The notes beneath the pieces are model-generated. The model was not told the DNA's origin, did no database searches, and saw only the letters and a list, made by a program, of their open reading frames with translations. A stretch of DNA of 64,000 bases, taken from Chloroflexus aggregans DSM 9485 (lineage in GTDB: Bacteria; Chloroflexota; Chloroflexia; Chloroflexales; Chloroflexaceae). The translations under genes and the position numbers were made by a program. The stretch covers positions 2,803,353 through 2,867,352 of the forward strand of contig NC_011831.1 of the NCBI RefSeq assembly GCF_000021945.1. The letters run 5' to 3'. Positions 6,736 to 50,259 of the stretch are shown one piece after another. The first letter of the stretch is position 1. Each line of letters opens with the position of its first letter.

Positions 6736-8253
6736 TCACTCCCCCTGCCGTGGTCGGTATTGAATTGCTTCGGCAACGTGAACGGCAGCGATCTGGTTGG
6801 CGCCGGCCAGATCGGCGATGGTGCGGGCGAGTCGCAAAATGCGGTGGTAACTGCGCGCAGAAAGATTAAGACGCTGGACCGCCGATTTGAGTAGGGATTG
6901 GCCGGCGTTGTCTAGGGCGCAAAAGGCGCGAATTTCGGCCGGGCCGAGGTCGGCATTACTGCGGCAGTGCGGGTGTTGGCGGAGTCGTTCGGTCTGGCGG
7001 TTGCGAGCAAAGATGACCCGTTCACGCACGGCGGCTGAGGTTTCACCGGCTGCGAGGCTGCTGAGTTTGTCGTATTTGATCCGCGGGGCCTCGATGTGGA
7101 GGTCGATGCGATCGAGGAGTGGCCCGCTGACCCGCCGTTGATAGCGGTTGACGAGGGTTGGTGAGCAGGTGCAGGTTCGCTCGGGGTCACCGTGCCAACC
7201 GCACGGACATGGGTTTTGGGCCGCAACGAGCATGAAGGCTGCCGGGTAGGTGATACTGCCTTGTGCCCGACTCAGCGTGACGATGCGGTCTTCGAGCGGT
7301 TGACGTAATACTTCTAACCGATGACCAAATTCGGGTAGCTCGTCGAGAAACAAGATGCCGCGGTGAGCGAGGGTGATCATTCCGGGTTTGACCCGCGTGC
7401 CGCCACCAACGAGTCCTGCGGTTGAAACGGTGTGATGCGGTGCGCAGAAAGGGCGTTCTCGAATGAGCGGTGTGTCGCGTGGGAGTTGCCCGGCGACACT
7501 GTAGATTTTGGTGACTTCGAGTGCCTCCGCAAAGCTGAGCGGCGGTAAGATGGCGTGGAGCGCACGCGCGAGCATTGTCTTGCCTGCCCCCGGCGGACCA
7601 CTCATCAGAACGTTGTGGCCTCCAGCGGCGGCAATTTCTAACGCCCGTTTCACGTGCTCTTGCCCACGCACATCGGCAAAATCGACGTGTGGCGTTGGAA
7701 CGATAGGGGTAAACCCCATCTGCCCTTGATAGGGTCGTATTGGATGATCACCATTGAGATGGTCGATTAATGCACGGAGAGAGGTTAGCGGGATAATGTG
7801 GAGACCGTCAATTAGCGCCGCTTCAGCCGCGTCTTCGGCGGGGAGATACATTGTCGTGATGCCGTGGGCACGGGCCACTGCCGCCATTGGGAGAATGCCG
7901 TCGGTGTGACGGAGGCTACCGTCAAGGCTGAGTTCACCGACAAACACCGCATCGGCAAGGTTGGCATCGAGTTGACCGGTAGCGATCAGCAAGCCGAGCG
8001 CGATCGGTAGATCATACGCCGGTCCGGCCTTGCGTAGGTCGGCAGGGGCGAGATTGACGGTAATGCGCTGCATCGGAAAGCGCATACCACTATTTCGTAC
8101 TGCGGAACGTACTCGTTCGCGGCTTTCGTGTACCGCAGCGTCGCCTAGCCCGACAACACTGAAAGCGGGCATGCCACCGGCGACATCAACCTCTACGTCA
8201 ACCAGCACGCCGTCTAGTCCGATAACGGCACAACTCAACACCTTGGCCAGCAT
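6736..8253 (-). CDS. comM: YifB/ComM family Mg-chelatase-like AAA+ ATPase
   Basis: The 505-aa protein is full length for the YifB/ComM family. An N-terminal Lon-protease-like ChlI domain (MLAKVLSCAVIGLDGVLVDV) is followed by an AAA+ core with Walker A SGPPGAGKTMLARAL, Walker B ILFLDELPEF, sensor-type PAAFMLVAAQNPCPCG, and the C-terminal ARSYHRILRLARTIADLAG helices. In naturally competent bacteria ComM is a hexameric helicase that drives branch migration during integration of transformed DNA; many non-competent bacteria also keep it. The family is firm; the competence role here is inference. It faces away from the membrane-protein gene at 8472. Confidence 0.93.
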   Translation of the reverse strand: MLAKVLSCAVIGLDGVLVDVEVDVAGGMPAFSVVGLGDAAVHESRERVRSAVRNSGMRFPMQRITVNLAPADLRKAGPAYDLPIALGLLIATGQLDANLADAVFVGELSLDGSLRHTDGILPMAAVARAHGITTMYLPAEDAAEAALIDGLHIIPLTSLRALIDHLNGDHPIRPYQGQMGFTPIVPTPHVDFADVRGQEHVKRALEIAAAGGHNVLMSGPPGAGKTMLARALHAILPPLSFAEALEVTKIYSVAGQLPRDTPLIRERPFCAPHHTVSTAGLVGGGTRVKPGMITLAHRGILFLDELPEFGHRLEVLRQPLEDRIVTLSRAQGSITYPAAFMLVAAQNPCPCGWHGDPERTCTCSPTLVNRYQRRVSGPLLDRIDLHIEAPRIKYDKLSSLAAGETSAAVRERVIFARNRQTERLRQHPHCRSNADLGPAEIRAFCALDNAGQSLLKSAVQRLNLSARSYHRILRLARTIADLAGANQIAAVHVAEAIQYRPRQGE

Positions 8254-8401
8254 GATAGCTCCTTCTGCGATGACTTGTCAGTACGTTACTAAGAGCTGAA
8301 CACCACTATGCGCTCCTATCTGACAGTTCTCCATAGTTATACCGTTTGAGATCGATAAAAGACGCGCGTAAGTTTTAACTCCCGAGTTTTGAACCTGTAC
8401 C

Positions 8402-8430
8402 TTGTCAGAATGTATGATATGCAATATAAT
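8402..8430 (+). promoter_or_regulatory. Sigma-70 type promoter for the 8472 membrane protein gene
   Basis: TTGTCA (8402-8407), 17-bp spacer, TATAAT (8425-8430); five of six and six of six consensus matches, with the start codon 42 bases further on. Confidence 0.7.
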
Positions 8431-8471
8431 GAACCCATGTGACAAGAAAAGGCAAATGCGGGAGGCTTGCG

Positions 8472-9176
8472 ATGGAGATGGAATATTCGCTGGCACTGGC
8501 GCTGGAGGATTACCTCCCGGTGATCTTTTCGCTGATCGGGGTATGGTTTCTTGCCCGCACCGTATACCAACTCGATCGTGGATTGGGGATGATGGTGTTT
8601 ACCGGTCTTGGTCTTCTGGCAGTCGGTGGTTTGCTCAAGGCGACGTGGAAACTGTTGATGGCGCTCAATGGCACCGATGTTCCTTTGTTCAGCCAAGCAC
8701 TCTTCCCCATGATTGCTCCCGGTTTTACCCTGATTGCCACGGCCGTATATAGTTATACGCGACAGTTGCGTGGTCAATCTGCTTTCCGTTGGCCATGGCT
8801 CGCTCCGCTTATCATCATTGCATTGTTTGGGGGTGGTTCGGCGATCATCGCGGCCAATGGTGGGCCATGGCGGGTACCGCTCATTATGCTGGCAACTATT
8901 GGCAACGTAGCCCTCTTGCTGATGCTTGCAATTGGTGCGTGGCGACGTAATATGCGTGGGTTGGCAGTCGGATTTGTGGTGGTGTTACTGGTTATTATCG
9001 GGATGTCGCAGATGGCGAGTAATATTCCACAAACGATTGCCGTTCAGTGGTTTGAGCAGATTGCGCAGACGTTGGCGCAACTTGCCTTTTGCCTAGGGAC
9101 ATGGCAGTTGACGCAGCGGATGGCGCAAGAGGCACCGGTGCGGCGGTTGGCGGTGAGTGTTGGTCAGGCTGGTTGA
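8472..9176 (+). CDS. Unrecognised integral membrane protein, 234 aa
   Basis: Start set at ATG 8472 (MEMEYSLALA) because GGAGG at 8461-8465 lies seven bases upstream; the longer frame starts before it without a ribosome site. Six to seven hydrophobic segments are visible: YLPVIFSLIGVWFLA, MMVFTGLGLLAVGGLL, MIAPGFTLIATAVYSY, WLAPLIIIALFGGGSAIIAA, IMLATIGNVALLLMLAIGAW, LAVGFVVVLLVIIGM and a final LAQLAFCLGTW. There is no conserved motif that I recognise. It is a monocistronic gene with a good promoter and a strong hairpin 55 bases downstream. The function is unknown. Confidence 0.8.
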   Translation: MEMEYSLALALEDYLPVIFSLIGVWFLARTVYQLDRGLGMMVFTGLGLLAVGGLLKATWKLLMALNGTDVPLFSQALFPMIAPGFTLIATAVYSYTRQLRGQSAFRWPWLAPLIIIALFGGGSAIIAANGGPWRVPLIMLATIGNVALLLMLAIGAWRRNMRGLAVGFVVVLLVIIGMSQMASNIPQTIAVQWFEQIAQTLAQLAFCLGTWQLTQRMAQEAPVRRLAVSVGQAG

Positions 9177-9229
9177 TCGGCCCGGTATTCAAAACGCAGC
9201 AAGTCAATACGTCAATCTCTGACATGGAA

Positions 9230-9259
9230 ACAAGAGGCGCGGTAGACCGCGTCTCTTGT
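9230..9259 (+). terminator. Long hairpin after the membrane protein gene
   Basis: ACAAGAG then CGCGGT (9230-9243) pair with ACCGCG then CTCTTGT (9246-9259), giving a nearly perfect 14-bp stem with a G-T pair in the middle. No T-run follows, so intrinsic termination may be inefficient. Confidence 0.5.
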
Positions 9260-9460
9260 ACGTTGTTACGCCATTGGGGTTGGGCCATTACTTTGACAGC
9301 GAAACAACAGTGAAGAACACCCAAACCATTACATAGTCTAGGTTAACATGTCGAACTAATGTACTATTTTTATCATTTTACATTTGAGAACGAGTCTTTT
9401 TGCGATGTTGCACGGTATTATAGATGACAGTTTCTTCATTGAAATGATCAGGAGACGATT

Positions 9461-9649
9461 ATGTCATTGCTTCAATCACTCATCCGTCTCATCCCTCGAC
9501 CTCCGGCACCAGCTCCGCCTCCACCACCGCCGGATCAACCACCATACTCCGATCACCCAAATACCGATGCTAACGAATCGCTAGACCCAACAAACCCTTG
9601 CTGGCACCCGAATGCAGTGCGTCGCCCAATCCGCGTGCGCAGCGCCTAA
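9461..9649 (+). CDS. Small proline-rich ORF, 62 aa
   Basis: A GGAGA at 9451-9455 stands six bases before the ATG. The product starts with an amphipathic stretch (MSLLQSLIRLIP), then a run of Pro-rich sequence (PRPPAPAPPPPPPDQPPY), then a polar tail ending in RRPIRVRSA. It has no recognisable domain and no signal peptide. It lies directly before the sigma-factor array, about 160 bases upstream of the first cassette start. It could be a genuine small protein or a chance frame; the ribosome site is the best argument for it. Confidence 0.4.
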   Translation: MSLLQSLIRLIPRPPAPAPPPPPPDQPPYSDHPNTDANESLDPTNPCWHPNAVRRPIRVRSA

Positions 9650-9810
9650 GTGTCAAATAGTCAAATAGATGTTGTTCAGACTCCAAGCCGGGGTGAATCT
9701 TCCACCCCGCCACCATCAACGTTTTGCAAAAATCGTACCGTTTTGGCCTCCCGGCCCCCCTATACTACGGAGTATCGGTGCTATCGTTTATCGTACTCTT
9801 GGAGACACGG

Positions 9811-10395
9811 ATGCAGCCCCCTACTCATCACACCATCGTGACCGGACTTCACCAGCGCGACCCGCAGATCATCGGCTGGCTCTACACGACCTACGCCCCG
9901 CGCCTTATTGGCTATTTCACCCGTCGTCTGCGTGACCCCGACCTCGCCCGCGACCTGTACCACGAATTGTTCCTGCGTCTGCTCGAGCGCGCCCCCACCT
10001 TCACCGACCGGGGCGTGCCCATCGAGGCGTGGCTTTTTCGTCTCGCCCACGACCTCGTCGTTGATACGCATCGGCGTGCCGGGCGGAGCGTCCCCCTGAC
10101 CGACGCGGCGCACTCCGCCGCTGACGATGCTGTTACCCTCACCTGCCTCCACGCTGCCGACCAGGCTGCGCTCTACCAGGCCATCACCACGCTGCCCTTG
10201 ACTTACCGGCGTGTGCTCACCTTGCGCTTTCGTGACAACTGCTCGCTCGCCGATACCGCGCTTCAGCTCGGTCTCTCCCTCTCGGCCACTAAGGCCCTCC
10301 AACGTCGCGCCATCGCTTGCCTCCGCGCTCTCCTCGTCACTGCCCCCGACGATGTTCCTCCATCCCTCCCCCCGTACTCCCCGCCGATGGCGTGA
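9811..10395 (+). CDS. ECF-family RNA polymerase sigma factor, array copy 1 (194 aa)
   Basis: Residues about 20-91 match sigma region 2: WLYTTYAPRLIGYFTRRL, DPDLARDLYHELFLRLLER, then IEAWLFRLAHDLVVDTHRRA, the core-binding and -10-recognition helices. Residues about 120-175 match region 4: AITTLPLTYRRVLTLRF, then CSLADTALQLGLSLSATKAL, a helix-turn-helix for -35 recognition, then LQRRAIACLRALL. It should direct core polymerase to a specific promoter set. The ATG has GGAG at 9801-9804; an in-frame TTG 87 bases upstream would translate the leader and is less likely. N-terminal variant A (MQPPTHHTIV) and the long tail (VTAPDDVPPSLPPYSPPMA) are present. No anti-sigma or sensor gene is adjacent, so the signal is unknown. 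Confidence 0.85.
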   Translation: MQPPTHHTIVTGLHQRDPQIIGWLYTTYAPRLIGYFTRRLRDPDLARDLYHELFLRLLERAPTFTDRGVPIEAWLFRLAHDLVVDTHRRAGRSVPLTDAAHSAADDAVTLTCLHAADQAALYQAITTLPLTYRRVLTLRFRDNCSLADTALQLGLSLSATKALQRRAIACLRALLVTAPDDVPPSLPPYSPPMA

Positions 10396-10404
10396 CACCA
10401 CGAT

Positions 10405-10427
10405 GCGGGTGGGTTTCGCCCACCCGC
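10405..10427 (+). terminator. Cassette hairpin, copy 1 (repeated after other copies)
   Basis: GCGGGTGGG, loop TTTCG, CCCACCCGC: a perfect 9-bp GC-rich stem about ten bases after the stop, followed by CTCAAAAGTTTT. Identical hairpins occur at 11119-11141, 13311-13333, 15303-15325 and 15942-15964; an imperfect version (GCGGGTGGG with CCCACTCGC) follows copies 6 and 7. It probably ends each cassette's transcript. Confidence 0.6.
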
Positions 10428-10433
10428 CTCAAA

Positions 10434-10524
10434 AGTTTTGCAGAAATCGTACCGTTTTAGCCGGCCTGCCCCCCTATACTACGGAGTATCGGTGCTATCG
10501 TTTATCGTACTCTTGGAGACACGG
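10434..10524 (+). promoter_or_regulatory. Conserved cassette leader / putative promoter (example: copy 2)
   Basis: Every full cassette is preceded by TTTTGCA(G/A)AAATCGTACCGTTT, a C-rich spacer, CCCTATACT and TTGGAGACAC before the ATG. The block begins at or near 9722, 10436, 11150, 12096, 13342, 14014, 14653 and 15334. Copies 1-4 and 6 have a 33-bp insert after TATACT that includes the small palindrome ATACT-ACGG-AGTAT; copies 7-9 lack it. The invariant AAATCGTACCGTTT element could be an ECF promoter or regulator site, possibly autoregulatory; no standard -35/-10 spacing fits well. Confidence 0.5.
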
Positions 10525-11109
10525 ATGCAGCCCCCTACTCATCACACCATCGTGACCGGACTTCACCAGCGCGACCCGCAGATTATCGGCTGGCTCTACA
10601 CGACCTACGCCCCGCGCCTTATTGGCTATTTCACCCGTCGTCTGCGTGACCCCGACCTCGCCCGCGACCTGTACCACGAATTGTTCCTGCGTCTGCTCGA
10701 GCGCGCCCCCACCTTCACCGACCGGGGCGTGCCCATCGAGGCGTGGCTTTTTCGTCTCGCCCACGACCTCGTCGTTGATACGCATCGGCGTGCCGGGCGG
10801 AGCGTCCCCCTGACCGACGCGGCGCACTCCGCCGCTGACGATGCTGTTACCCTTACCTGCCTCCACGCTGCCGACCAGGCTGCGCTCCACCAGGCCCTCA
10901 CCACGCTGCCCCTGACCTACCGGCGTGTGCTCACCTTGCGCTTTCGTGACAACTGCTCGCTCGCCGATACCGCGCTTCAGCTCGGTCTCTCCCTCTCGGC
11001 CACTAAGGCCCTCCAACGTCGCGCCATCGCTTGCCTCCGCGCTCTCCTCGTCACTGCCCCCGACGATGTTCCTCCATCCCTCCCCCCGTACTCCCCGCCG
11101 ATGGCGTGA
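10525..11109 (+). CDS. ECF-family sigma factor, array copy 2 (194 aa)
   Basis: Nearly identical to copy 1 over the whole 714-base cassette, including leader and terminator hairpin. The only protein differences I see are in the start of region 4: LHQALTTLPLT here against LYQAITTLPLT in copy 1. N-terminal variant A and the long Pro-rich tail are kept. Regions 2 and 4 are intact, so the product should be functional. Ribosome site GGAG is at 10515-10518. The identity of leader, gene and trailer points to a recent whole-cassette duplication. Confidence 0.85.
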   Translation: MQPPTHHTIVTGLHQRDPQIIGWLYTTYAPRLIGYFTRRLRDPDLARDLYHELFLRLLERAPTFTDRGVPIEAWLFRLAHDLVVDTHRRAGRSVPLTDAAHSAADDAVTLTCLHAADQAALHQALTTLPLTYRRVLTLRFRDNCSLADTALQLGLSLSATKALQRRAIACLRALLVTAPDDVPPSLPPYSPPMA

Positions 11110-11238
11110 CACCACGATGCGGGTGGGTTTCGCCCACCCGCCTCAAAAGTTTTGCAGAAATCGTACCGTTTTAGCCGGCCTGCCCCCCTATACTACGGAG
11201 TATCAGTGCTATCGTGTATCGTACTCTTGGAGACACCT

Positions 11239-11781
11239 ATGCATTCCCCTACTCATTCCACCATCGTGACCGGGCTTCGACAGCGCGACCCGCAGATTAT
11301 CGGCTGGCTCTACACGACCTACGCCCCGCGCCTCATTGGCTACTTCAGCCGTCGCCTGCGCGACCCCGACCTCGCCCGCGACCTGCACCACGAATTGTTC
11401 CTGCGGCTGCTCGAACGCGCCCCCACCTTCACCGACCGGGGCGTGCCCATCGAGGCGTGGCTTTTTCGCCTCGCCCACGACCTCGTCGTTGATACACATC
11501 GGCGTGCCGGGCGGAGCGTCCCCCTGACCGACGCGGCGCACTCCGCCGCTGACGATGCTGTTACCCTTACCTGCCTCCACGCTGCCGACCAGGCTGCGCT
11601 CTACCAGGCCATCACCACGCTGCCCCTGACCTACCGGCGTGTGCTCACCTTGCGCTTTCGTGACAACTGCTCGCTCGCCGATACCGCGCTTCAGCTCGGT
11701 CTCTCCCTCTCGGCCACTAAGGCCCTCCAACGTCGCGCCATCGCTTGCCTCCGCGCTCTCCTCTCCCCGCCGATGGCGTGA
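11239..11781 (+). CDS. ECF-family sigma factor, array copy 3 (180 aa)
   Basis: This copy has N-terminal variant B (MHSPTHSTIVTGLRQRDP) and YFSRRL with DLHHEL in region 2, but keeps the copy-1/2 linker GRSVPLTDAAHSAADDAV. The tail is short: ALLSPPMA, an in-frame 42-base deletion relative to copies 1 and 2. Regions 2 and 4 are complete. It is therefore a mosaic between the A-type and B-type cassettes. It is followed by a 300-base spacer rather than by the usual hairpin and leader. Confidence 0.82.
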   Translation: MHSPTHSTIVTGLRQRDPQIIGWLYTTYAPRLIGYFSRRLRDPDLARDLHHELFLRLLERAPTFTDRGVPIEAWLFRLAHDLVVDTHRRAGRSVPLTDAAHSAADDAVTLTCLHAADQAALYQAITTLPLTYRRVLTLRFRDNCSLADTALQLGLSLSATKALQRRAIACLRALLSPPMA

Positions 11782-12083
11782 CACCACGACGCGGGTGGGT
11801 TCACCCCCACCCGCTCTGTGTATCGCAACGATGGTCTGACACCGAGATGGGGGGTGGTTTCACGCCCTACCCGCCCCGCTTGTCTCGACCGAGAGGTTTA
11901 TCCGGGGTCAGCCGCCGTACCGCAATGTGGGATGGTGGTTTCACGCCCTATCCGCCCTGCTCATCGCGACGCTGACCTACCTCCAAACCGAGATTGGCGT
12001 CACTCTCACGCTTCCTGCACTCGTTGTCACAGAGCAAGTGCGCTGGTTTTCAGTCCCAAAGACGAGATGGGGTTGCTCCCCAC
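11782..12083 (+). repeat. Spacer repeat, first copy (about 300 bp)
   Basis: The segment after copy 3 is repeated almost base for base after copy 4 (12728-13026; one difference seen, TATCGCAACG against TATCACAACG). It contains several short GGTGGTTTCACGCCCTA-like repeats. No coding sequence is supported in it; open frames across it lack ribosome sites and differ from any known family. Confidence 0.75.
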
Positions 12084-12184
12084 CCGCCTCAAAAGTTTTG
12101 CAGAAATCGTACCGTTTTAGCCGGCCTGCCCCCCTATACTACGGAGTATCAGTGCTATCGTGTATCGTACTCTTGGAGACACCT

Positions 12185-12727
12185 ATGCATTCCCCTACTC
12201 ATTCCACCATCGTGACCGGGCTTCGACAGCGCGACCCGCAGATTATCGGCTGGCTCTACACGACCTACGCCCCGCGCCTCATTGGCTACTTCAGCCGTCG
12301 CCTGCGCGACCCCGACCTCGCCCGCGACCTGCACCACGAATTGTTCCTGCGGCTGCTCGAACGCGCCCCCACCTTCACCGACCGGGGCGTGCCCATCGAG
12401 GCGTGGCTTTTTCGCCTCGCCCACGACCTCGTCGTCGATACCCACCGGCGTGCCGGGCGGACCGTCCCGCTGACCGAGGCCGCGCATCCTGCCGCCGACG
12501 ACGATGTCACCATCACCTGCCTCCACGCCGCCGACCAGGCTGCGCTCCACCAGGCCCTCACCACACTGCCCCTGACCTATCGGCGCGTGCTTACCTTGCG
12601 CTTTTGCGACAACTGCTCGCTCGCCGATACCGCGCTTCAGCTCGGTCTCTCCCTCTCGGCCACTAAGGCCCTCCAACGTCGCGCCATCGCTTGCCTCCGC
12701 GCTCTCCTCTCCCCGCCGATGGCGTGA
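12185..12727 (+). CDS. ECF-family sigma factor, array copy 4 (180 aa)
   Basis: Variant B N-terminus, as copy 3, but with the other linker (GRTVPLTEAAHPAADDDVTITC) and RFCDNC in region 4 instead of RFRDNC. Short tail ALLSPPMA. Start set at ATG 12185 with GGAG 6-9 bases upstream; a longer open frame reaches back into the spacer but has no ribosome site. Copy 3 plus spacer and copy 4 plus spacer are related by a 946-base tandem duplication, with the linker region replaced afterwards or before. Confidence 0.82.
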   Translation: MHSPTHSTIVTGLRQRDPQIIGWLYTTYAPRLIGYFSRRLRDPDLARDLHHELFLRLLERAPTFTDRGVPIEAWLFRLAHDLVVDTHRRAGRTVPLTEAAHPAADDDVTITCLHAADQAALHQALTTLPLTYRRVLTLRFCDNCSLADTALQLGLSLSATKALQRRAIACLRALLSPPMA

Positions 12728-13026
12728 CACCACGACGCGGGTGGGTTCACCCCCACCCGCTCTGTGTATCACAACGATGGTCTGACACCGAGATGGGGGG
12801 TGGTTTCACGCCCTACCCGCCCCGCTTGTCTCGACCGAGAGGTTTATCCGGGGTCAGCCGCCGTACCGCAATGTGGGATGGTGGTTTCACGCCCTATCCG
12901 CCCTGCTCATCGCGACGCTGACCTACCTCCAAACCGAGATTGGCGTCACTCTCACGCTTCCTGCACTCGTTGTCACAGAGCAAGTGCGCTGGTTTTCAGT
13001 CCCAAAGACGAGATGGGGTTGCTCCC
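12728..13026 (+). repeat. Spacer repeat, second copy
   Basis: Near-identical to 11782-12080. Its right end stops abruptly at GGGGTTGCTCCC and joins directly to the middle of a sigma gene (13029), marking a recombination junction; in the first copy the same sequence continues into a normal cassette leader. Confidence 0.75.
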
Positions 13027-13028
13027 CC

Positions 13029-13301
13029 GACGACGATGTCATCATCACCTGCCTCCACGCCGCCGACCAGGTCGCGCTCCACCAGGCCATTACCACGCTG
13101 CCCCTGACCTACCGGCGTGTGCTCACCTTGCGCTTTCGCGACCACTGCTCGCTTGCCGATACCGCGCTTCAGCTCGGTCGCTCTCTCTCAGCCACTAAGG
13201 CCCTCCAACGTCGCGCCATCGCTCGCCTCCGGGCTCTCCTCGTCACTGCCCCCGACGATGTTCCTCCATCCCTCCCCCCGTACTCCCCGCCGATGGCGTG
13301 A
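13029..13301 (+). pseudogene. Truncated sigma factor gene (region 4 half only)
   Basis: Begins at the codons for DDDVIITC, equivalent to about residue 105 of the full genes, and runs through a complete region 4 helix-turn-helix (FRDHCSLADTALQLGRSLSA) and the long tail. It lacks region 2, the leader and the ribosome site. The frame stays open back into the spacer, so a spacer-fused product is possible but unlikely. Its sequence matches the second half of copy 6 except for the tail, so it is probably a leftover from unequal recombination. Confidence 0.75.
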
Positions 13302-13430
13302 CACCACGATGCGGGTGGGTTTCGCCCACCCGCCTCAAAAGTTTTGCAGAAATCGTACCGTTTTAGCCGGCCTGCCCCCCTATACTACGGAGTATCGGTG
13401 CTATCGTGTATCGTACTCTTGGAGACACCT

Positions 13431-13973
13431 ATGCATTCCCCTACTCATTCCACCATCGTGACCGGACTTCACCAGCGCGACCCGCAGATCATCGGCTGGC
13501 TCTACACGACCTACGCCCCGCGCCTTATTGGCTACTTCAGCCGTCGTCTGCGTGACCCCGACCTCGCCCGCGACCTGTACCACGAATTGTTCCTGCGTCT
13601 GCTCGAGCGCGCCCCCACCTTCACCGACCGGGGCGTGCCCATCGAGGCGTGGCTTTTTCGTCTCGTCCACGACCTCGTCGTTGATACGCATCGGCGTGCC
13701 GGGCGGAGCGTCCCCCTGACCGAGGCCGCGCATCCTGCCGCCGACGACGATGTCATCATCACCTGCCTCCACGCCGCCGACCAGGTCGCGCTCCACCAGG
13801 CCATTACCACGCTGCCCCTGACCTACCGGCGTGTGCTCACCTTGCGCTTTCGCGACCACTGCTCGCTTGCCGATACCGCGCTTCAGCTCGGTCGCTCTCT
13901 CTCAGCCACTAAGGCCCTCCAACGTCGCGCCATCGCGCGCCTTCGCGCAATCCTCTCCCCGCCGATGGCGTGA
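13431..13973 (+). CDS. ECF-family sigma factor, array copy 6 (180 aa)
   Basis: Variant B start (MHSPTHST) but GLHQRDP and DLYHEL as in variant A; LFRLVHDLVVD has Val where most copies have Ala. The linker GRSVPLTEAAHPAADDDVIITC is a hybrid of both linker types, and region 4 has RFRDHC and LQLGRSLSA, which change helix-turn-helix residues relative to copies 1-4 (Asn to His, Leu to Arg). The tail is AILSPPMA. The regions are intact. These region 4 changes are the best candidates for altered -35 recognition within the array. Confidence 0.82.
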   Translation: MHSPTHSTIVTGLHQRDPQIIGWLYTTYAPRLIGYFSRRLRDPDLARDLYHELFLRLLERAPTFTDRGVPIEAWLFRLVHDLVVDTHRRAGRSVPLTEAAHPAADDDVIITCLHAADQVALHQAITTLPLTYRRVLTLRFRDHCSLADTALQLGRSLSATKALQRRAIARLRAILSPPMA

Positions 13974-14069
13974 CACTGAGACGCGGGTGGGTTCACCCCA
14001 CTCGCCCCAAACGTTTTGCAAAAATCGTACCGTTTCGCACCACCCAAATCCCTATACTTGGAGACACGG

Positions 14070-14612
14070 ATGCAGCCCCCTACTCATCACACCATCGTGA
14101 CCGGACTTCATCAGCGCGACCCGCAGATCATCGGCTGGCTCTACACGACCTACGCCCCGCGCCTTATTGGCTATTTCACCCGTCGTCTGCGTGACCCCGA
14201 CCTCGCCCGCGACCTGTACCACGAATTGTTTCTGCGTCTGCTCGAGCGCGCCCCCACCTTCACCGACCGGGGCGTGCCCATCGAGGCGTGGCTTTTTCGC
14301 CTCGTCCACGACCTCGTCGTTGATACGCATCGGCGTGCCGGGCGGAGCGTCCCCCTGACCGACGCGGCGCACTCCGCCGCTGACGATGCTGTTACCCTTA
14401 CCTGCCTCCACGCTGCCGACCGCGCCGCCCTGCACCAGGCCATCACCACGCTGCCCTTTGCCTACCAGCACGTTCTCACCTTGCGCTTTCGCGACCACTG
14501 TTCGCTTGCCGATACCGCGCTTCAGCTCGGTCGCTCTCTCTCAGCCACTAAGGCCCTCCAACGTCGCGCCATCGCGCGCCTTCGCGCAATCCTCTCCCCG
14601 CCGATGGCGTGA
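14070..14612 (+). CDS. ECF-family sigma factor, array copy 7 (180 aa)
   Basis: Variant A N-terminus (MQPPTHHTIV) joined to LVHDLVVD and the linker GRSVPLTDAAHSAADDAV. Region 4 is the most divergent: CLHAADRAALHQAITTLPFAYQHVLTLRFRDHC, then LQLGRSLSA. Tail AILSPPMA as copy 6. The leader is the short form: TATACT is followed directly by TGGAGACACGG and the ATG, so the cassette is 639 bases. It may be the least recently homogenised full copy. Confidence 0.82.
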   Translation: MQPPTHHTIVTGLHQRDPQIIGWLYTTYAPRLIGYFTRRLRDPDLARDLYHELFLRLLERAPTFTDRGVPIEAWLFRLVHDLVVDTHRRAGRSVPLTDAAHSAADDAVTLTCLHAADRAALHQAITTLPFAYQHVLTLRFRDHCSLADTALQLGRSLSATKALQRRAIARLRAILSPPMA

Positions 14613-14708
14613 CACTGAGACGCGGGTGGGTTCACCCCACTCGCCCCAAACGTTTTGCAAAAATCGTACCGTTTCGCACCACCCAAATCCCTATACTTGG
14701 AGACACCT

Positions 14709-15293
14709 ATGCATTCCCCTACTCATTCCACCATCGTGACCGGACTTCACCAGCGCGACCCGCAGATCATCGGCTGGCTCTACACGACCTACGCCCCGCG
14801 CCTTATTGGCTACTTCAGCCGTCGCCTGCGCGACCCCGACCTTGCCCGCGACCTGCACCACGAATTGTTCTTGCGGCTGCTCGAACGCGCCCCCACCTTC
14901 GCCGACCGGGGCGTTCCCATCGAGGCGTGGCTTTTTCGCCTTGCCCACGACCTCGTGGTCGATACCCACCGGCGTGCCGGGCGGACCGTCCCGCTGACCG
15001 AGGCCGCGCATCCTGCCGCCGACGACGATGTCACCATCACCTGCCTCCACGCCGCCGACCAGGCTGCGCTCTACCAGGCCATCACCACGCTGCCCCTGAC
15101 CTACCGGCGTGTGCTCACCTTGCGCTTTTGCGACAACTGCTCGCTCGCCGATACCGCGCTTCAGCTTGGTCTCTCCCTCTCGGCCACTAAGGCCCTCCAA
15201 CGTCGCGCCATCGCTCGCCTCCGGGCTCTCCTCGTCACTGCCCCCGACGATGTTCCTCCATCCCTCCCCCCGTACTCCCCGCCGATGGCGTGA
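14709..15293 (+). CDS. ECF-family sigma factor, array copy 8 (194 aa)
   Basis: Variant B N-terminus with the short leader. Distinct from earlier copies by APTFADRG (Ala for Thr) before the second helix of region 2; linker GRTVPLTEAAHPAADDDVTITC and RFCDNC as copy 4, yet it carries the long tail VTAPDDVPPSLPPYSPPMA as copies 1 and 2. It is thus another mosaic. The perfect GCGGGTGGG hairpin follows at 15303-15325. Confidence 0.82.
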   Translation: MHSPTHSTIVTGLHQRDPQIIGWLYTTYAPRLIGYFSRRLRDPDLARDLHHELFLRLLERAPTFADRGVPIEAWLFRLAHDLVVDTHRRAGRTVPLTEAAHPAADDDVTITCLHAADQAALYQAITTLPLTYRRVLTLRFCDNCSLADTALQLGLSLSATKALQRRAIARLRALLVTAPDDVPPSLPPYSPPMA

Positions 15294-15389
15294 CACCACG
15301 ATGCGGGTGGGTTTCGCCCACCCGCCTCAAAAGTTTTGCAAAAATCGTACCGTTTCGCACCACTCAAATCCCTATACTTGGAGACACCT

Positions 15390-15932
15390 ATGCATTCCCC
15401 TACTCATTCCACCATCGTGACCGGGCTTCACCGGCGCGACCCGCAGATTATCGGCTGGCTCTACACGACCTACGCCCCGCGCCTCATTGGCTACTTCAGC
15501 CGTCGCCTGCGCGACCCCGACCTTGCCCGCGACCTGCACCACGAATTGTTCTTGCGGCTGCTCGAACGCGCCCCCACCTTCGCCGACCGGGGCGTTCCCA
15601 TCGAGGCGTGGCTTTTTCGCCTTGCCCACGACCTCGTGGTCGATACCCACCGGCGTGCCGGGCGGACCGTCCCGCTGACCGAGGCCGCGTATCCTGCCGC
15701 CGACGACGATGTCACCATCACCTGCCTCCACGCCGCCGACCAGGCTGCGCTCCACCAGGCCCTCACCACGCTGCCCCTGACCTACCGGCGTGTGCTCACC
15801 TTGCGCTTTTGCGACAACTGCTCGCTCGCCGATACCGCGCTTCAGCTCGGTCTCTCCCTCTCGGCCACTAAGGCCCTCCAACGTCGCGCCATCGCTCGCC
15901 TCCGGGCTCTCCTCTCCCCGCCGATGGCGTGA
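15390..15932 (+). CDS. ECF-family sigma factor, array copy 9 (180 aa)
   Basis: Last full copy. Like copy 8 in region 2 (APTFADRG) but with GLHRRDP near the start and AAYPAADDDV in the linker; short tail ALLSPPMA. Short leader form, GGAG ribosome site immediately upstream. A perfect hairpin (15942-15964) follows, after which the array breaks up into fragments. Regions 2 and 4 are complete. Confidence 0.82.
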   Translation: MHSPTHSTIVTGLHRRDPQIIGWLYTTYAPRLIGYFSRRLRDPDLARDLHHELFLRLLERAPTFADRGVPIEAWLFRLAHDLVVDTHRRAGRTVPLTEAAYPAADDDVTITCLHAADQAALHQALTTLPLTYRRVLTLRFCDNCSLADTALQLGLSLSATKALQRRAIARLRALLSPPMA

Positions 15933-15965
15933 CACCACGATGCGGGTGGGTTTCGCCCACCCGCT

Positions 15966-16005
15966 ACGCCGCCGACCAGGTCGCGCTCCACCAGGCCATC
16001 ACCAC
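15966..16005 (+). pseudogene. Sigma gene fragment (about 40 bp)
   Basis: Matches the CLHAADQVALHQAITT stretch of copy 6 (ACGCCGCCGACCAGGTCGCG onward) and ends abruptly at ACTGATAACC. It is cut off on both sides and cannot encode a product; remnant of recombination at the array's end. Confidence 0.65.
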
Positions 16006-16043
16006 TGATAACCCAACGGCCATTGGTGTTTACCGTATTGCTC

Positions 16044-16160
16044 CGCCGACCAGGCTGCGCTCCACCAGGCCCTCACCACGCTGCCCCTGACCTACCGGCG
16101 TGTGCTCACCTTGCGCTTTTGCGACAACTGCTCGCTCGCCGATACCGCGCTTCAGTTCGG
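16044..16160 (+). pseudogene. Sigma gene fragment (about 117 bp of region 4)
   Basis: Matches the start of region 4 of copies 4, 8 and 9 (ADQAALHQALTTLP through RFCDNCSLADTALQ) and stops at TTCAGTTCGG. No start codon or ribosome site belongs to it. It marks the right border of the array, about 140 bases before the next gene. Confidence 0.7.
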
Positions 16161-16302
16161 CCCTTCCTCCTGCTCTCCACCACCAGAGCAAATATTCGAT
16201 GTCTGAATTGCGATAGTGTGGAATATCAGTCCTTCCCCAGAACTCTATGCTATAATCAACTAGACTGCTCGTTATCTGCTGGCCCGTGTGTGAGCAACTT
16301 AT

Positions 16303-17331
16303 ATGACGATCGATCGCGAACAACTGCGCGAACTCATCTTGCAAGAACTACCGGCGCTCTTCGAGCGTGATCCGGAGTTGCAGCGCTTAATTTTGCGGCT
16401 GTCGCAACAATATTTTGCTGACCGCCGTGAAACAGAGAGTCGATTTGATCAAATTCTCGAAGAGCTACGCCGTGATCGCGAAGAGCAGTCACGACGTTGG
16501 GCAGAACAAATGCGGTTATGGGAAGGGCAAGATCGGCGATGGGAAGAGCAAGATCGGCGGTGGGAAGAGCAAAGTCGCCGTTGGGCAGAACAAATGCGGT
16601 TATGGGAAGGGCAAGATCGGCGATGGGAAGAGCAAGATCGGTGGTGGGAAGAGCAAAGTCGCCGCTGGGCAGAACAAATGCGGTTATGGGAAGAGCAAGA
16701 TCGGCGGTGGGAAGAGCAAAGTCGCCGCTGGGCAGAACAAATGCGGTTATGGGAAGAGCAAGATCGGCGGTGGGAAGAGCAAAGTCGCCGCTGGGCAGAA
16801 CAAATGCGGTTATGGGAAGAGCAAAGTCGGCGGTGGGAAGAGCAAAATCGCCGGTGGGAAGAAAATCAGAGTGTGATCCGCGAACTTATCAAGAGAGTAG
16901 ATGTACTTGATCGTCGGTTCGATTCGACCATAGGTGCATTAGGCGCACGCTGGGGGTTATCTTCCGAACAATCTTTTCGGAGTGCGCTTCGAGGTATTTT
17001 GACCGATTTCTTCCCGCTTGAGGTAATTCACATCAATGAGTATGATGATAGCGGTGAGGTGTTCGGTCGTCCTGAACACATTGAACTAGATCTAATAATT
17101 AAAAATGGTGTTTTGCTTATTTGTGAGATTAAATCTTCAATGAGCAAAGCTGACATGTATTTGTTTGAACGCAAAGCGCGTTGGTATCAACAACGCTATG
17201 GCCGAACAGCGCAACAACTTATTGTGATTTCGCCGATGGTCGACCCAGCAGCGCATAAAGTGGCCGAACGTTTAGGGATTGTCGTGTATAGTTTTCCTGA
17301 AGATGTAGGTAAAGCTATTACAGAATCGTAA
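16303..17331 (+). CDS. Coiled-coil protein with C-terminal PD-(D/E)XK nuclease-like domain (DUF3782-like)
   Basis: The 342-residue protein has an N-terminal helical part (about 1-60), a long charged coiled coil (about 63-190) made of near-identical SRRWAEQMRLWEEQDRRWEEQ units, and a C-terminal domain (about 195-335) with IELDLIIKNGVLLICEIKSSM: an acidic residue, a spacer and E-x-K as in PD-(D/E)XK nucleases. Proteins of this build (DUF3782 type) are numerous in Chloroflexota and cyanobacteria; their role is not established, and nuclease activity is only suggested by the fold motif. A possible -10 TATAAT is at 16251-16256 without a good -35. It stands alone, facing the ChlI-like operon. Confidence 0.75.
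   Translation: MTIDREQLRELILQELPALFERDPELQRLILRLSQQYFADRRETESRFDQILEELRRDREEQSRRWAEQMRLWEGQDRRWEEQDRRWEEQSRRWAEQMRLWEGQDRRWEEQDRWWEEQSRRWAEQMRLWEEQDRRWEEQSRRWAEQMRLWEEQDRRWEEQSRRWAEQMRLWEEQSRRWEEQNRRWEENQSVIRELIKRVDVLDRRFDSTIGALGARWGLSSEQSFRSALRGILTDFFPLEVIHINEYDDSGEVFGRPEHIELDLIIKNGVLLICEIKSSMSKADMYLFERKARWYQQRYGRTAQQLIVISPMVDPAAHKVAERLGIVVYSFPEDVGKAITES
16492..16857 (+). repeat. In-frame tandem repeats (63/84 bp) encoding the coiled coil
   Basis: Five units starting at (S)RRWAEQMRLWE. The first two are 84 bp (extra DRRWEEQ heptad) and the others 63 bp, all multiples of 21 bp, so changes in copy number lengthen or shorten the coiled coil by whole heptads without a frameshift. Confidence 0.85.
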
Positions 17332-17358
17332 TTAATACCCGGTTTTCATGCTGTGTTT

Positions 17359-18411
17359 CTAGTGGTTATCCATCGCCGAATCTTCTATCTGACGCATCGT
17401 GCTGCGTCGCCCCCGCCGACGTGGTGTCTCACTCACCGGAAATAGTTCATCAAGGGCTGCATTGATCGTAGCCTGCTCGGTGTGTACATTGGCAGTGTGC
17501 CGTTCAAACCAGTCACTATGCCGCCACGTAAGCGCCAACGGTGCAATCCGCCGAATATCTTCGGCATTAACGGTATTGCGAAAATCGGCGGCAGCACGTG
17601 CTCTTGCTCCCTCGAGCAGTGCGATTTCGGCGCGGTGTGATGGAATTTGTAAACGCTGTACTAATGCCAGCGCCTGTTCCTCCAATTCTGGCGGAATCGT
17701 CACATGGGGGAGTATCTCACGGGCAATCATAATCTCTTCAGCGAGAGCCGTGGTCTGGGCAGCATAGACTTGTCGGAATCCCGCCGGATCGTTCCGAAAA
17801 TCGCGTGCCCGCCGGTAGATTTCTAGCCGAGCACGATGATCGGCAACCGGGGCAACCCATACTCGTAAACCAAAGCGATCGAGGATTTGCGGGCGTAATG
17901 CACCCTCTTCTGGGTTCATAGACCCGATCAATATAAACTGACTGGGAAAGAGTCGGATCATCGCGCCACGGCGTACAAAGGTACGACCCTGTGCTGCAGC
18001 GTCGAGGATGGCATCTACCACGGCCTGATCAAGCAGGTTAATCTCATCGACGTAGAGAACATTACCGTGCGCACGGGCGAGAATTCCCTCTTCAAGACGA
18101 ACGATCCGCTGTTCAAGTGCGATCCGCTCGTTGATCCCCCCGACAACATCTTCAAGTCGAGCATTGAGCGGTAATTCGATCAACCGCATCCGTTCTATAA
18201 GGGGCTTACCATTGCTTGTGGTTGCGTCGCGCGTGACAAATGGCATAAGATCGAGGAGGCTGCGGACCGCGGTCGTCTTACCGACACCGTAGGGACCGCT
18301 TATCAGAATGCCACCGATTTGGGGGTTGATCAATCCAAGGATGAGCGCCGTCTTTAGTTCGGTCTGACCGACCATCGCCAACAGCGGAAAGGGATAGATC
18401 TCGTCTGTCAT
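17359..18411 (-). CDS. ChlI/BchI-family AAA+ ATPase
   Basis: The 350-aa protein has the AAA+ fold of magnesium-chelatase subunit I: Walker A GPYGVGKTTAVRSL (about 39-50), Walker B NVLYVDEINLL (about 117-126), SQFILIGSMNPEEGALRPQI and a sensor-like RPQILDRFGLRV, followed by a helical lid (SHRAEIALLEGARARAAADF). Length fits BchI, which with BchD powers Mg insertion into protoporphyrin IX in bacteriochlorophyll synthesis. The Walker A sequence departs from the usual GDRGTGKST of pigment BchI, and no chlD/bchD or bchH is nearby, so it may be a paralogue with a different von Willebrand-type partner. It is the last gene of the probable rlmI-argJ-lon-DUF503 operon. Confidence 0.8.
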   Translation of the reverse strand: MTDEIYPFPLLAMVGQTELKTALILGLINPQIGGILISGPYGVGKTTAVRSLLDLMPFVTRDATTSNGKPLIERMRLIELPLNARLEDVVGGINERIALEQRIVRLEEGILARAHGNVLYVDEINLLDQAVVDAILDAAAQGRTFVRRGAMIRLFPSQFILIGSMNPEEGALRPQILDRFGLRVWVAPVADHRARLEIYRRARDFRNDPAGFRQVYAAQTTALAEEIMIAREILPHVTIPPELEEQALALVQRLQIPSHRAEIALLEGARARAAADFRNTVNAEDIRRIAPLALTWRHSDWFERHTANVHTEQATINAALDELFPVSETPRRRGRRSTMRQIEDSAMDNH

Positions 18412-21906: not shown

Positions 21907-22101
21907 CGGCAGTGCGGCGCCCATCCGGCAGTGCGGCGCCCATCCGGCAGTGCGGCGCCCATCCGGCAGTGCGGCGCCCATCCGGCAGTGCGGCGCCCAT
22001 CCGGCAGTGCGGCGCCCATCCGGCAGTGCGGCGCCCATCCGGCAGTGCGGCGCCCATCCGGCAGTGCGGCGCCCATCCGGCAGTGCGGCGCCTATCCGGC
22101 A
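21907..22101. repeat. Tandem 19-bp repeats (10 units) between divergent genes
   Basis: The unit CGGCAGTGCGGCGCCCATC is repeated without spacers at 21907 and every 19 bases to 22096; the tenth unit has one change (CCTATC) and five bases of an eleventh follow. Each unit contains the palindrome GGCGCC. It occupies most of the 320-base gap between the divergent rlmI-like and aldo/keto reductase genes. Open frames through it are by-products of the repeat (19 is not a multiple of three, so all frames cycle). Confidence 0.95.
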
Positions 22102-22179
22102 GGTTACATAACGCAACACCGGATTCGTCAATGTTTGCTATGATAGATATATCACCGAACATTGCCAACAGGAGGAACT

Positions 22180-49323: not shown

Positions 49324-50259
49324 CTATCGTAACCCCTTCGCACCGCTCAGATCACAATCGGTTAAGTCGGCGTCGGTCAAGTCGGCGTCGGTCAAATCGG
49401 CATCGGCCAAACTCGCCTCACGGAGATTCACCCCACGAAGATTCGCACCACGTAAATTGGCACCGCTCAAGTTAGCCCGCGACAAATTCGCGCGCGTGAA
49501 GATAGCGTTACGTAAATGTGCCCCACTGAGATAAATCCCACTCAGGTTAGCATCACTAAAATCGGCATTGCACAAACTTGCCTCACTAAGGTTTGTCTCA
49601 CTCAAATTTGCCCCGATACAATTCACCTCATCGAGCGTCGCCTCACGTAGATTAGCGTGCATCAAGTTAGCCCCGGCCAAATTCGCGCCGTTGAGGTTTG
49701 CTCCGTTTAAACTGACGCGAAGCAAGATCGCCCCACTCAAGTTCGCTCCACTCAGGTTAACCAATTGCGCTTCACGTAGTTGGGCTTCGCTCAGATTGGC
49801 ACCGATCATCACCGTATCACGCAGATCGGCCCCACTTAAGTTACAGAGGCTTAAATTTGCGCCATACAGATTCGCACCACTGAAATCAGCCGCACTCAGA
49901 TTGGCGCCACGTAGGTTGGCCCCAATCAGCGTTGCAAACTCAAGATTGGCCCAGCTCAGGTCGGCTTTGCGTAAATCGGCATCGCTCAAATCGGCCCGCA
50001 CTAACTGCGCCCAATTGAGTTTCGCTTCACGGAGATTTGCCCAGCTCAGATTTGCTTCACCCAACTCACAAATACTCAGATCGGCTCGGTAGAGATTGGC
50101 GTCGGTCAGCCGCGCACGACTCAATTTGGCTTCACTGAGATTCGCCCCGCTGAGGTTTGCGGCACTCAGGTTCGCCCCACTGAGATTTGCCCCCACTAAC
50201 CACAGTGGGCCAGGCCGGTTGAGTAAATCGTAGATCTGATCAGGTGTCAAATCGGCCAT
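49324..50259 (-). CDS. Pentapeptide-repeat protein
   Basis: Of 311 residues, all but the first 20 and the last few are pentapeptide repeats of the form A(N/D)L(S/R)(G/E), about 55 in a row, e.g. ANLSGANLSAANLSGANLSE. These fold into a right-handed quadrilateral beta-helix. Some (Qnr, MfpA) mimic DNA and protect gyrase, but most have no known role. The N-terminal MADLTPDQIYDLLNRPGP may be a short cap. There are no membrane segments. It ends facing uvrA and follows the V4R-like gene by about 20 bases. Confidence 0.9.
   Translation of the reverse strand: MADLTPDQIYDLLNRPGPLWLVGANLSGANLSAANLSGANLSEAKLSRARLTDANLYRADLSICELGEANLSWANLREAKLNWAQLVRADLSDADLRKADLSWANLEFATLIGANLRGANLSAADFSGANLYGANLSLCNLSGADLRDTVMIGANLSEAQLREAQLVNLSGANLSGAILLRVSLNGANLNGANLAGANLMHANLREATLDEVNCIGANLSETNLSEASLCNADFSDANLSGIYLSGAHLRNAIFTRANLSRANLSGANLRGANLRGVNLREASLADADLTDADLTDADLTDCDLSGAKGLR

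Follow-up and report, generated by a model that had tools for sequence, protein, structure and literature searches.

Why should a photosynthetic bacterium from hot springs keep eight sigma factor genes of the extracytoplasmic function (ECF) type, regulators that are mostly encoded singly, head to tail, with no recognisable anti-sigma gene beside them? The array that raises this question lies in a 64,000-nucleotide stretch of Chloroflexus aggregans DSM 9485 (G000:C1:2803353-2867352, from a genome, G000, that forms a single contig of 4,684,931 bases), which we call the window, and it had been singled out in an initial annotation. The reading that we favour, at a probability of about one half, is a tandem amplification, specific to this lineage, in which an ECF sigma gene with no recognisable anti-sigma partner acts by dosage under an upstream activator. 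Dosage fits best because each copy is intact, evolves under purifying selection and possesses a conserved promoter of its own as well as a hairpin 3' of the gene, and for the same reasons it is the most apt of the three functions that the initial annotation had suggested.

Eight intact ECF sigma genes in tandem

The eight full-length genes of 180 or 194 amino acids (aa) that had been described are borne out as open reading frames (ORFs) that run intact from ATG to stop within 9811-15932, and the expectation of at least three truncated copies also holds:

9811-10395, + strand: sigma copy 1, 194 aa (ORF; Pfam regions 2 and 4)
10525-11109, + strand: sigma copy 2, 194 aa (ORF)
11239-11781, + strand: sigma copy 3, 180 aa (ORF)
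12185-12727, + strand: sigma copy 4, 180 aa (ORF)
13431-13973, + strand: sigma copy 5, 180 aa (ORF)
14070-14612, + strand: sigma copy 6, 180 aa (ORF; Pfam regions 2 and 4, scanned from 14058, four codons upstream)
14709-15293, + strand: sigma copy 7, 194 aa (ORF)
15390-15932, + strand: sigma copy 8, 180 aa (ORF; Pfam regions 2 and 4)
13024-13301, + strand: long sigma fragment, second half through gene end, 3' of the duplicated spacer
15966-16005, + strand: 40-base pair (bp) sigma fragment, second half of gene
16043-16169, + strand: 127-bp sigma fragment, second half of gene
11782-12085, + strand: spacer 3' of copy 3, with a second instance, 99.7% identical, at 12728-13027, 3' of copy 4
10405-10427, + strand: G+C-rich hairpin directly 3' of copy 1

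Start-to-start distances are 639, 681, 714, 946 or 1246 bases; the longest gap between copies contains the duplicated 300-bp spacer and the fragment at 13024-13301, and the other two fragments (15966 and 16043) come 3' of copy 8. The two protein lengths differ by a 14-codon stretch ahead of a common C-terminal end, SPPMA.

Three of the eight copies were scanned with profile models. Sigma70_r2 (PF04542) was found in all three (E 4.7e-14 to 5.7e-13), both region-4 models (PF08281 and PF04545) exceeded their gathering cut-offs in each, and no other Pfam domain appeared at E 0.01; the general ECF model TIGR02937 also exceeded its cut-off. Region 2 with an ECF-type region 4, and neither region 1.1 nor region 3, is the composition of an ECF (group 4) sigma factor, and the proposed assignment of the genes to the sigma-70 family, ECF type, is supported. 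The top NCBIfam model is TIGR02952 (BldN), at 80.5, 80.2 and 78.7 bits, scores that lie far under the cut-off of 206.45 and place the copies outside the BldN equivalog. Among Protein Data Bank sequences, copy 1 matches chain 6dxo_A best; this chain belongs to an ECF sigma factor that we take to be BldN.

The residues PPMA stand directly before the stop in all 16 Chloroflexus sigma genes of our tree that have an intact 3' end (for example at 10381-10395 of the window). The linker before them varies, as do the codons and the stop, and PPMA is therefore conserved at the protein level; it ends none of 24 homologues taken from outside the genus, each from a different genome. This tail could be a degron or a docking tail.

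An adjoining anti-sigma or sensor gene is usual for an ECF sigma factor, but not obligatory. As the initial annotation had noted, none is recognisable among the neighbours that we scanned, an anti-sigma of unfamiliar type being possible. These neighbours encode a 234-aa protein without a Pfam hit and a DUF3782/PDDEXK_10 protein, and homologues of both occur at the corresponding site of a relative (G006) that lacks the array.

The hairpin of copy 1 is repeated exactly at 11119 (copy 2), 13311 (long fragment), 15303 (copy 7) and 15942 (copy 8), with variants 3' of copies 3-6. Folding z-scores are -3.5, -4.1, -1.9 and -4.6 after copies 1, 3, 5 and 7, and the hairpin before copy 1 folds with z -0.8. 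The array hairpins have no T-run, and a terminator role for them is a guess; the six terminator-like sites called by a scanner in 9300-16400 all fall within the sigma genes, and Rfam gave zero matches in 8000-18000.

The copies are distinct, constrained and mosaic

No copy is identical to another. Identity among the eight ranges from 87.6 to 99.0% for DNA and from 86.7 to 99.0% for protein; the term "near-identical", used in the initial annotation, suits the top of this range and is slightly strong for the bottom. The ratio of nonsynonymous to synonymous substitution (dN/dS, NG86) ranges from 0.13 to 0.36 for single pairs of copies; the sum over all 28 pairs, which are not independent, gives 0.20. 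In an alignment of the repeat units with 85 informative sites, the four-gamete test fails for 1771 of 3570 site pairs, the Hudson-Kaplan minimum (Rm) is 14 recombination events, and the types of promoter, N-terminus, middle and tail occur in different combinations from copy to copy. The copies look like maintained genes that exchange sequence.

These data bear on two alternatives. A highly repetitive region such as this one invites the suspicion of an assembly artefact, but the copies are all distinct, unit lengths and mosaics vary, and the genome is one contig; since no two copies are identical and so many site pairs (1771/3570) fail the four-gamete test, an assembly duplication is very unlikely, and we put its chance close to nil. 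Because the copies differ by up to 12% of their DNA, are mosaic and have dN/dS near 0.2, they represent neither an assembly artefact nor eight decaying genes.

The other alternative is a set of recombination cassettes, in which copies are exchanged and promoter choice varies with them; the initial annotation had raised copy replacement and diversification of promoter choice as separate ideas. The copies do recombine, as the mosaics and the Rm of 14 attest, and a few region-4 differences (R/C, N/H and L/R) lend slight support to diversification of promoter choice, but amino-acid diversity is low and nothing points to altered targets. A cassette or switching system has one expression site and silent, promoterless donors. 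Here a start codon, a stop and a conserved promoter are found at all eight full-length copies, a single expression site is not evident, and there are no full-length promoterless donors. Because each copy has its own promoter, cassette switching is disfavoured and keeps only a slim chance.

The array is absent from the corresponding site in relatives

We compared the locus with seven genomes of the same genus (G001-G007; G002 is 82% complete). In the window the array sits between the 234-aa gene and the DUF3782/PDDEXK_10 gene (16303-17331), which is followed by a gene for an AAA (MoxR-like) ATPase (17359-18411). G004, G005 and G007 have the 234-aa gene followed by the ATPase gene (the G004 234-aa gene has an internal stop), G006 has the 234-aa gene, a DUF3782-type gene and the ATPase gene, and none of these four sites holds the array. 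The 234-aa gene has different neighbours in G003 and no match in G001 or G002.

Family members do occur elsewhere in these genomes, sometimes multiplied or decayed. G003 (5,258,541 bases) has three copies within about 17 kb, in a stretch that also holds several transposase-like ORFs (translations read by eye). G001 has two copies in tandem, of which the second is interrupted by a stop, plus a partial third copy that also contains one; in G006 a single copy is intact and two more carry stops. The G005 contig ends directly after a sigma-type promoter and that of G007 within a sigma gene, ends that could stem from an unresolved repeat, and no close family member was found in G002. Among the single-contig genomes, open family genes number one in G006, three in G003 and nine in G000. 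The earlier view that the array's copy number is unusual is supported. In the tree, copies cluster by genome, with 100/99 support for the eight array copies, the three of G003 and the pair of G006; long branches meet in this tree and its deeper order is unsure.

Within its own genome, the closest relative outside the array, which the initial annotation had proposed to look for, is C1:1312950 (45% identical). Its upstream neighbour is common to G001 and G005 and its downstream neighbours to G007, and directly upstream of it lies a decayed sigma copy (C1:1311795) whose promoter is still readable. This divergent homologue adjoins RAMP-family genes that resemble a type III CRISPR locus (C1:1312947-1321212), and similar RAMP-type genes adjoin the sigma gene of G007. 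A link to type III CRISPR was considered and set aside as a matter of neighbourhood only: the array lies elsewhere, and G001 shows just short matches nearby. For a mobile-element origin, a phage collection gave zero matches; in a plasmid collection 20 records matched, at 28-36% identity among the ten matches listed, and two distant relatives came from one scan of genome contigs.

The decayed members raise the question of whether the array is a passing stage in a birth-and-death family, produced by unequal crossing-over, now eroding and without present function in its multiplicity. The three fragments within the array, the decayed copy with its kept promoter beside the divergent homologue and the stop-bearing copies in G006 (two) and G001 (two) are what such a process would leave, but all eight full-length copies are open, have dN/dS of 0.13-0.36 and retain intact promoters, and we consider this explanation unlikely.

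One promoter architecture precedes all eight copies

Upstream of every copy stands TTTTGCA(A/G)AAATCGTACCGTTT, followed by 17 bases and TATACT, an architecture of TTTTGCA box, TACC box, 21 bp and TATACT:

9722-9766, + strand: promoter of copy 1, long type
10436-10480, + strand: promoter of copy 2, long type
11150-11194, + strand: promoter of copy 3, long type
12096-12140, + strand: promoter of copy 4, long type
13342-13386, + strand: promoter of copy 5, long type
14014-14058, + strand: promoter of copy 6, short type
14653-14697, + strand: promoter of copy 7, short type
15334-15378, + strand: promoter of copy 8, short type

Long and short types are alike in boxes and spacing, and most of their spacer letters differ. 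Canonical sigma-70 promoters in 9300-16400 number one, against 1.3 expected, and lie at none of the sigma copies.

In the own genome, the pattern TACCGTTT-N16-18-TATA has 11 matches and its reversed control one. Eight are the array promoters, two belong to the divergent sigma gene and its decayed neighbour, and the last (C1:1375974) is without a TTTTGCA box and was judged a chance match. Over the eight Chloroflexus genomes, TTTTGCAA-N3-9-TACCGTTT has 18 matches, in five genomes, and none in the reversed control; a looser pattern has 28 against one in the control, and four of the 28 (G006:C1:3855670, G002:C83, G004:C133 and G004:C136) we also attribute to chance. The distance from TACC to the -10 hexamer is 21 bp in 30 of 32 promoters selected from these matches and typed by hand, 20 in one and 22 in one, a sharpness that is partly imposed, as the -10 hexamers were chosen by us and most patterns allowed nearby spacings only.

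An identical or similar promoter stands before the divergent own-genome homologue and before sigma genes of other Chloroflexus, and besides sigma genes it precedes three orthologous sets, A, B and C. Gene A (891 aa; the N-terminus looks signal-like by eye, and there is a match to a glycosyl-hydrolase core) carries it in all eight genomes, seven by pattern and the own genome by eye, with TACACT as the -10. Gene B (277 aa; the N-terminus is again signal-like, 3-keto-disaccharide hydrolase is matched below threshold, and the next gene encodes a 782-aa protein for which Pfam gave no match) carries it in five, G000, G003, G005, G006 and G007, where it was not found at the other B copy; G001 has only a contig-end fragment of B, and G002 has no match. 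Gene C (1201 aa, many hydrophobic stretches, no Pfam match) carries it in five of seven genomes, G002 having no match to the gene. These occurrences suggest a genus-wide regulon of sigma genes and apparently secreted or membrane proteins. At C1:4085000-4095000 of the own genome the B pair is tandemly duplicated, with the shared promoter at the second pair only.

Array promoters have TCGTACC in place of TGTTACC. Because the exact 14-mer AAATCGTACCGTTT has a single own-genome occurrence beyond the array (C1:3920159), within coding sequence, the variant box may partly insulate the array from the other members of the regulon. When two mismatches are allowed, the 14-mer has 56 matches, mostly distant from the array, against 11 in the reversed control, an excess that may come from codon usage. 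As regulon sites, C1:3920159 and C1:4174893 (one mismatch) were dropped, both lying within long ORFs. The shared promoter, the wider regulon and the empty site in relatives are additions to what the initial annotation contained.

An outside activator or recognition by the sigma factors themselves

OmpR/PhoB-family regulators bind direct half-sites 11 bp apart, at a fixed distance from a sigma-A -10. We compared this arrangement with the upstream DNA of the 24 homologues outside the genus, which for one of them amounts to just 7 bases. TTAC-N22-TATNNT, the Chloroflexus geometry, occurs in three of them (G008, G011 and G019; shuffle mean 0.06, largest 1 in 500 runs, reversed 0) and TTAC-N21-TATNNT in three (G013, G018 and G033); other gaps from 14 to 29 gave none but one, at 17. 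In the 12 homologues of the same family that were tested, units of the form xT[TGC]AC[CT] stand 11 bp apart six times in five genomes (two in G013 and one each in G009, G017, G018 and G019), whereas shuffled sequences gave a mean of 0.1 and at most 2 in any of 400 runs; a distance of 22 bp occurs four times. Of 19 typed Chloroflexus promoters, 16 have a GC that precedes TACC by 10 or 11 bp, and in two of the three others the script took a nearer GC.

The TACC core and its spacing are retained while the sigma proteins fall to 45-52% identity between species and paralogues, and because of this persistence an outside activator fits somewhat better than self-recognition. With moderate confidence, then, we propose that a common activator acts on promoters of sigma-A type. 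This activator, which may be an OmpR/PhoB-type response regulator, would bind the TTTTGCA / TTACC pair, whose members lie about one helical turn apart, and would thereby switch on all eight copies from their sigma-A-like -10 elements at the same time as the envelope genes. The resulting burst of sigma protein would steer RNA polymerase to further promoters, and unequal crossing-over with gene conversion would maintain the high copy number and the similarity of the copies.

Several results weigh against this proposal. Seven of the 12 same-family homologues are without an 11-bp pair, as are all 11 homologues from other families of the order; the unit was defined after the sequences had been viewed, and the shuffles preserve base composition only. 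A stricter search for two TTACC boxes in 10 genomes gave one match, away from its sigma homologue. The upstream half-box of the Chloroflexus promoters is weak and degenerate and its distance shifts by one base, G003 and G006 are without the TTTTGCAA form, and the bases after TACC vary in G003 and G004. The promoter was not found at either B copy of G004 and is missing at gene C in the own genome and G004. No response-regulator gene was identified, and none adjoins the array. Finally, ECF sigma factors generally autoregulate (PMC8103513, PMC3426412).

The last point speaks for a self-feeding amplifier, in which the promoter is the ECF sigma factor's own (-35 near TTACC, -10 TATNNT) and the copies drive all eight genes and the secreted-protein genes as a steep or bistable switch. 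Ten of the 11 own-genome promoter matches mark sigma genes themselves, the spacing from TACC to the -10 is near-constant, and G003 deviates both in its promoter, which reads TTTTTTACCAAA, and in its region-4 helix. Yet TATNNT is a sigma-A-like -10, one promoter core is common to paralogues at 45% identity, and the 11-bp tandem repeats in some other genera are unexpected for a -35 element. Moreover, the ECF signature given in PMC3426412, AAC at -35 and CGT at -10, is absent from the predicted array promoters, which read TACC-N21-TATACT. The shared promoter would suit autoregulation as well as a common activator. Autoregulation is ranked second because of the box repeats before homologues in related genera; we hold it to be possible, if less probable than dosage under an activator. 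Its extension to a closed positive loop of eight sigma genes, in which copy number would determine the gain and recombination would tune it, is slightly less likely again.

Two further features of the homologues in other genera deserve mention. Upstream of the G018 homologue, GGTAAC repeats about 10-11 bp apart are followed by GTTACC repeats and then TATACT, an iteron-like arrangement. The homologous sigma gene also often lies near a gene for an M50 (site-2-protease-like) peptidase, one of which was scanned (L019:494-1243) and the others recognised by eye (L018, L022, L023, L025 and L040), an odd neighbour for an ECF gene without an anti-sigma.

Other repeats in the window

The DUF3782/PDDEXK_10 gene at 16303-17331 contains a 21-bp repeat array of 16 units that encodes a charged repeat, and is thus an unusually repetitive nuclease-like gene. 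A 19-bp tandem repeat (10.3 copies, 99% match) at 21907-22102 is apparently intergenic. At 49358-50193, 15-bp repeats lie within a gene whose G006 relative resembles pentapeptide repeats.

Comparison with known systems

Sigma factors compete for RNA polymerase, and copy number would for this reason be a direct control knob. Chloroflexus, with copy numbers of 1, 3 and 9, a defined promoter and conserved co-regulated genes, would offer a joint test of sigma dosage, of positive feedback and of the rapid evolution of sigma genes. Searches of an open-access library listed no paper on an ECF sigma gene amplified in tandem in nature, and the word "sigma" is absent from the main text of a C. aggregans metatranscriptome paper (PMC8004040).

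BldN-type ECF sigma factors (TIGR02952) resemble the array proteins in having region 2 and region 4 and are the best NCBIfam match of the three copies scanned and the best Protein Data Bank match of copy 1; the array differs in a score far under the model's cut-off, in its multiple copies, in the lack of a recognisable adjoining anti-sigma and in the -PPMA tail. SigE of Streptomyces coelicolor, controlled by CseBC, is a transcriptionally controlled ECF sigma factor without an anti-sigma (PMC8999054). The array is similar in having no recognisable anti-sigma neighbour, and in several related genera its homologues are preceded by box repeats that resemble regulator sites, but it has eight copies and no two-component genes beside it.

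EcfG of the Alphaproteobacteria is governed by the NepR/PhyR partner switch (PMC8999054), of which there is no sign at the array, though no search was aimed at one, and a tandem array is not described for EcfG in the available text of PMC8103513. Additive ECF paralogues (PMC8103513) and transcriptionally controlled ECF sigma factors (PMC8999054) are already known. The likeness to EcfG lies in multiplicity: up to six paralogues contribute additively in M. extorquens (PMC8103513), and the copies of the array might act additively in the same way.

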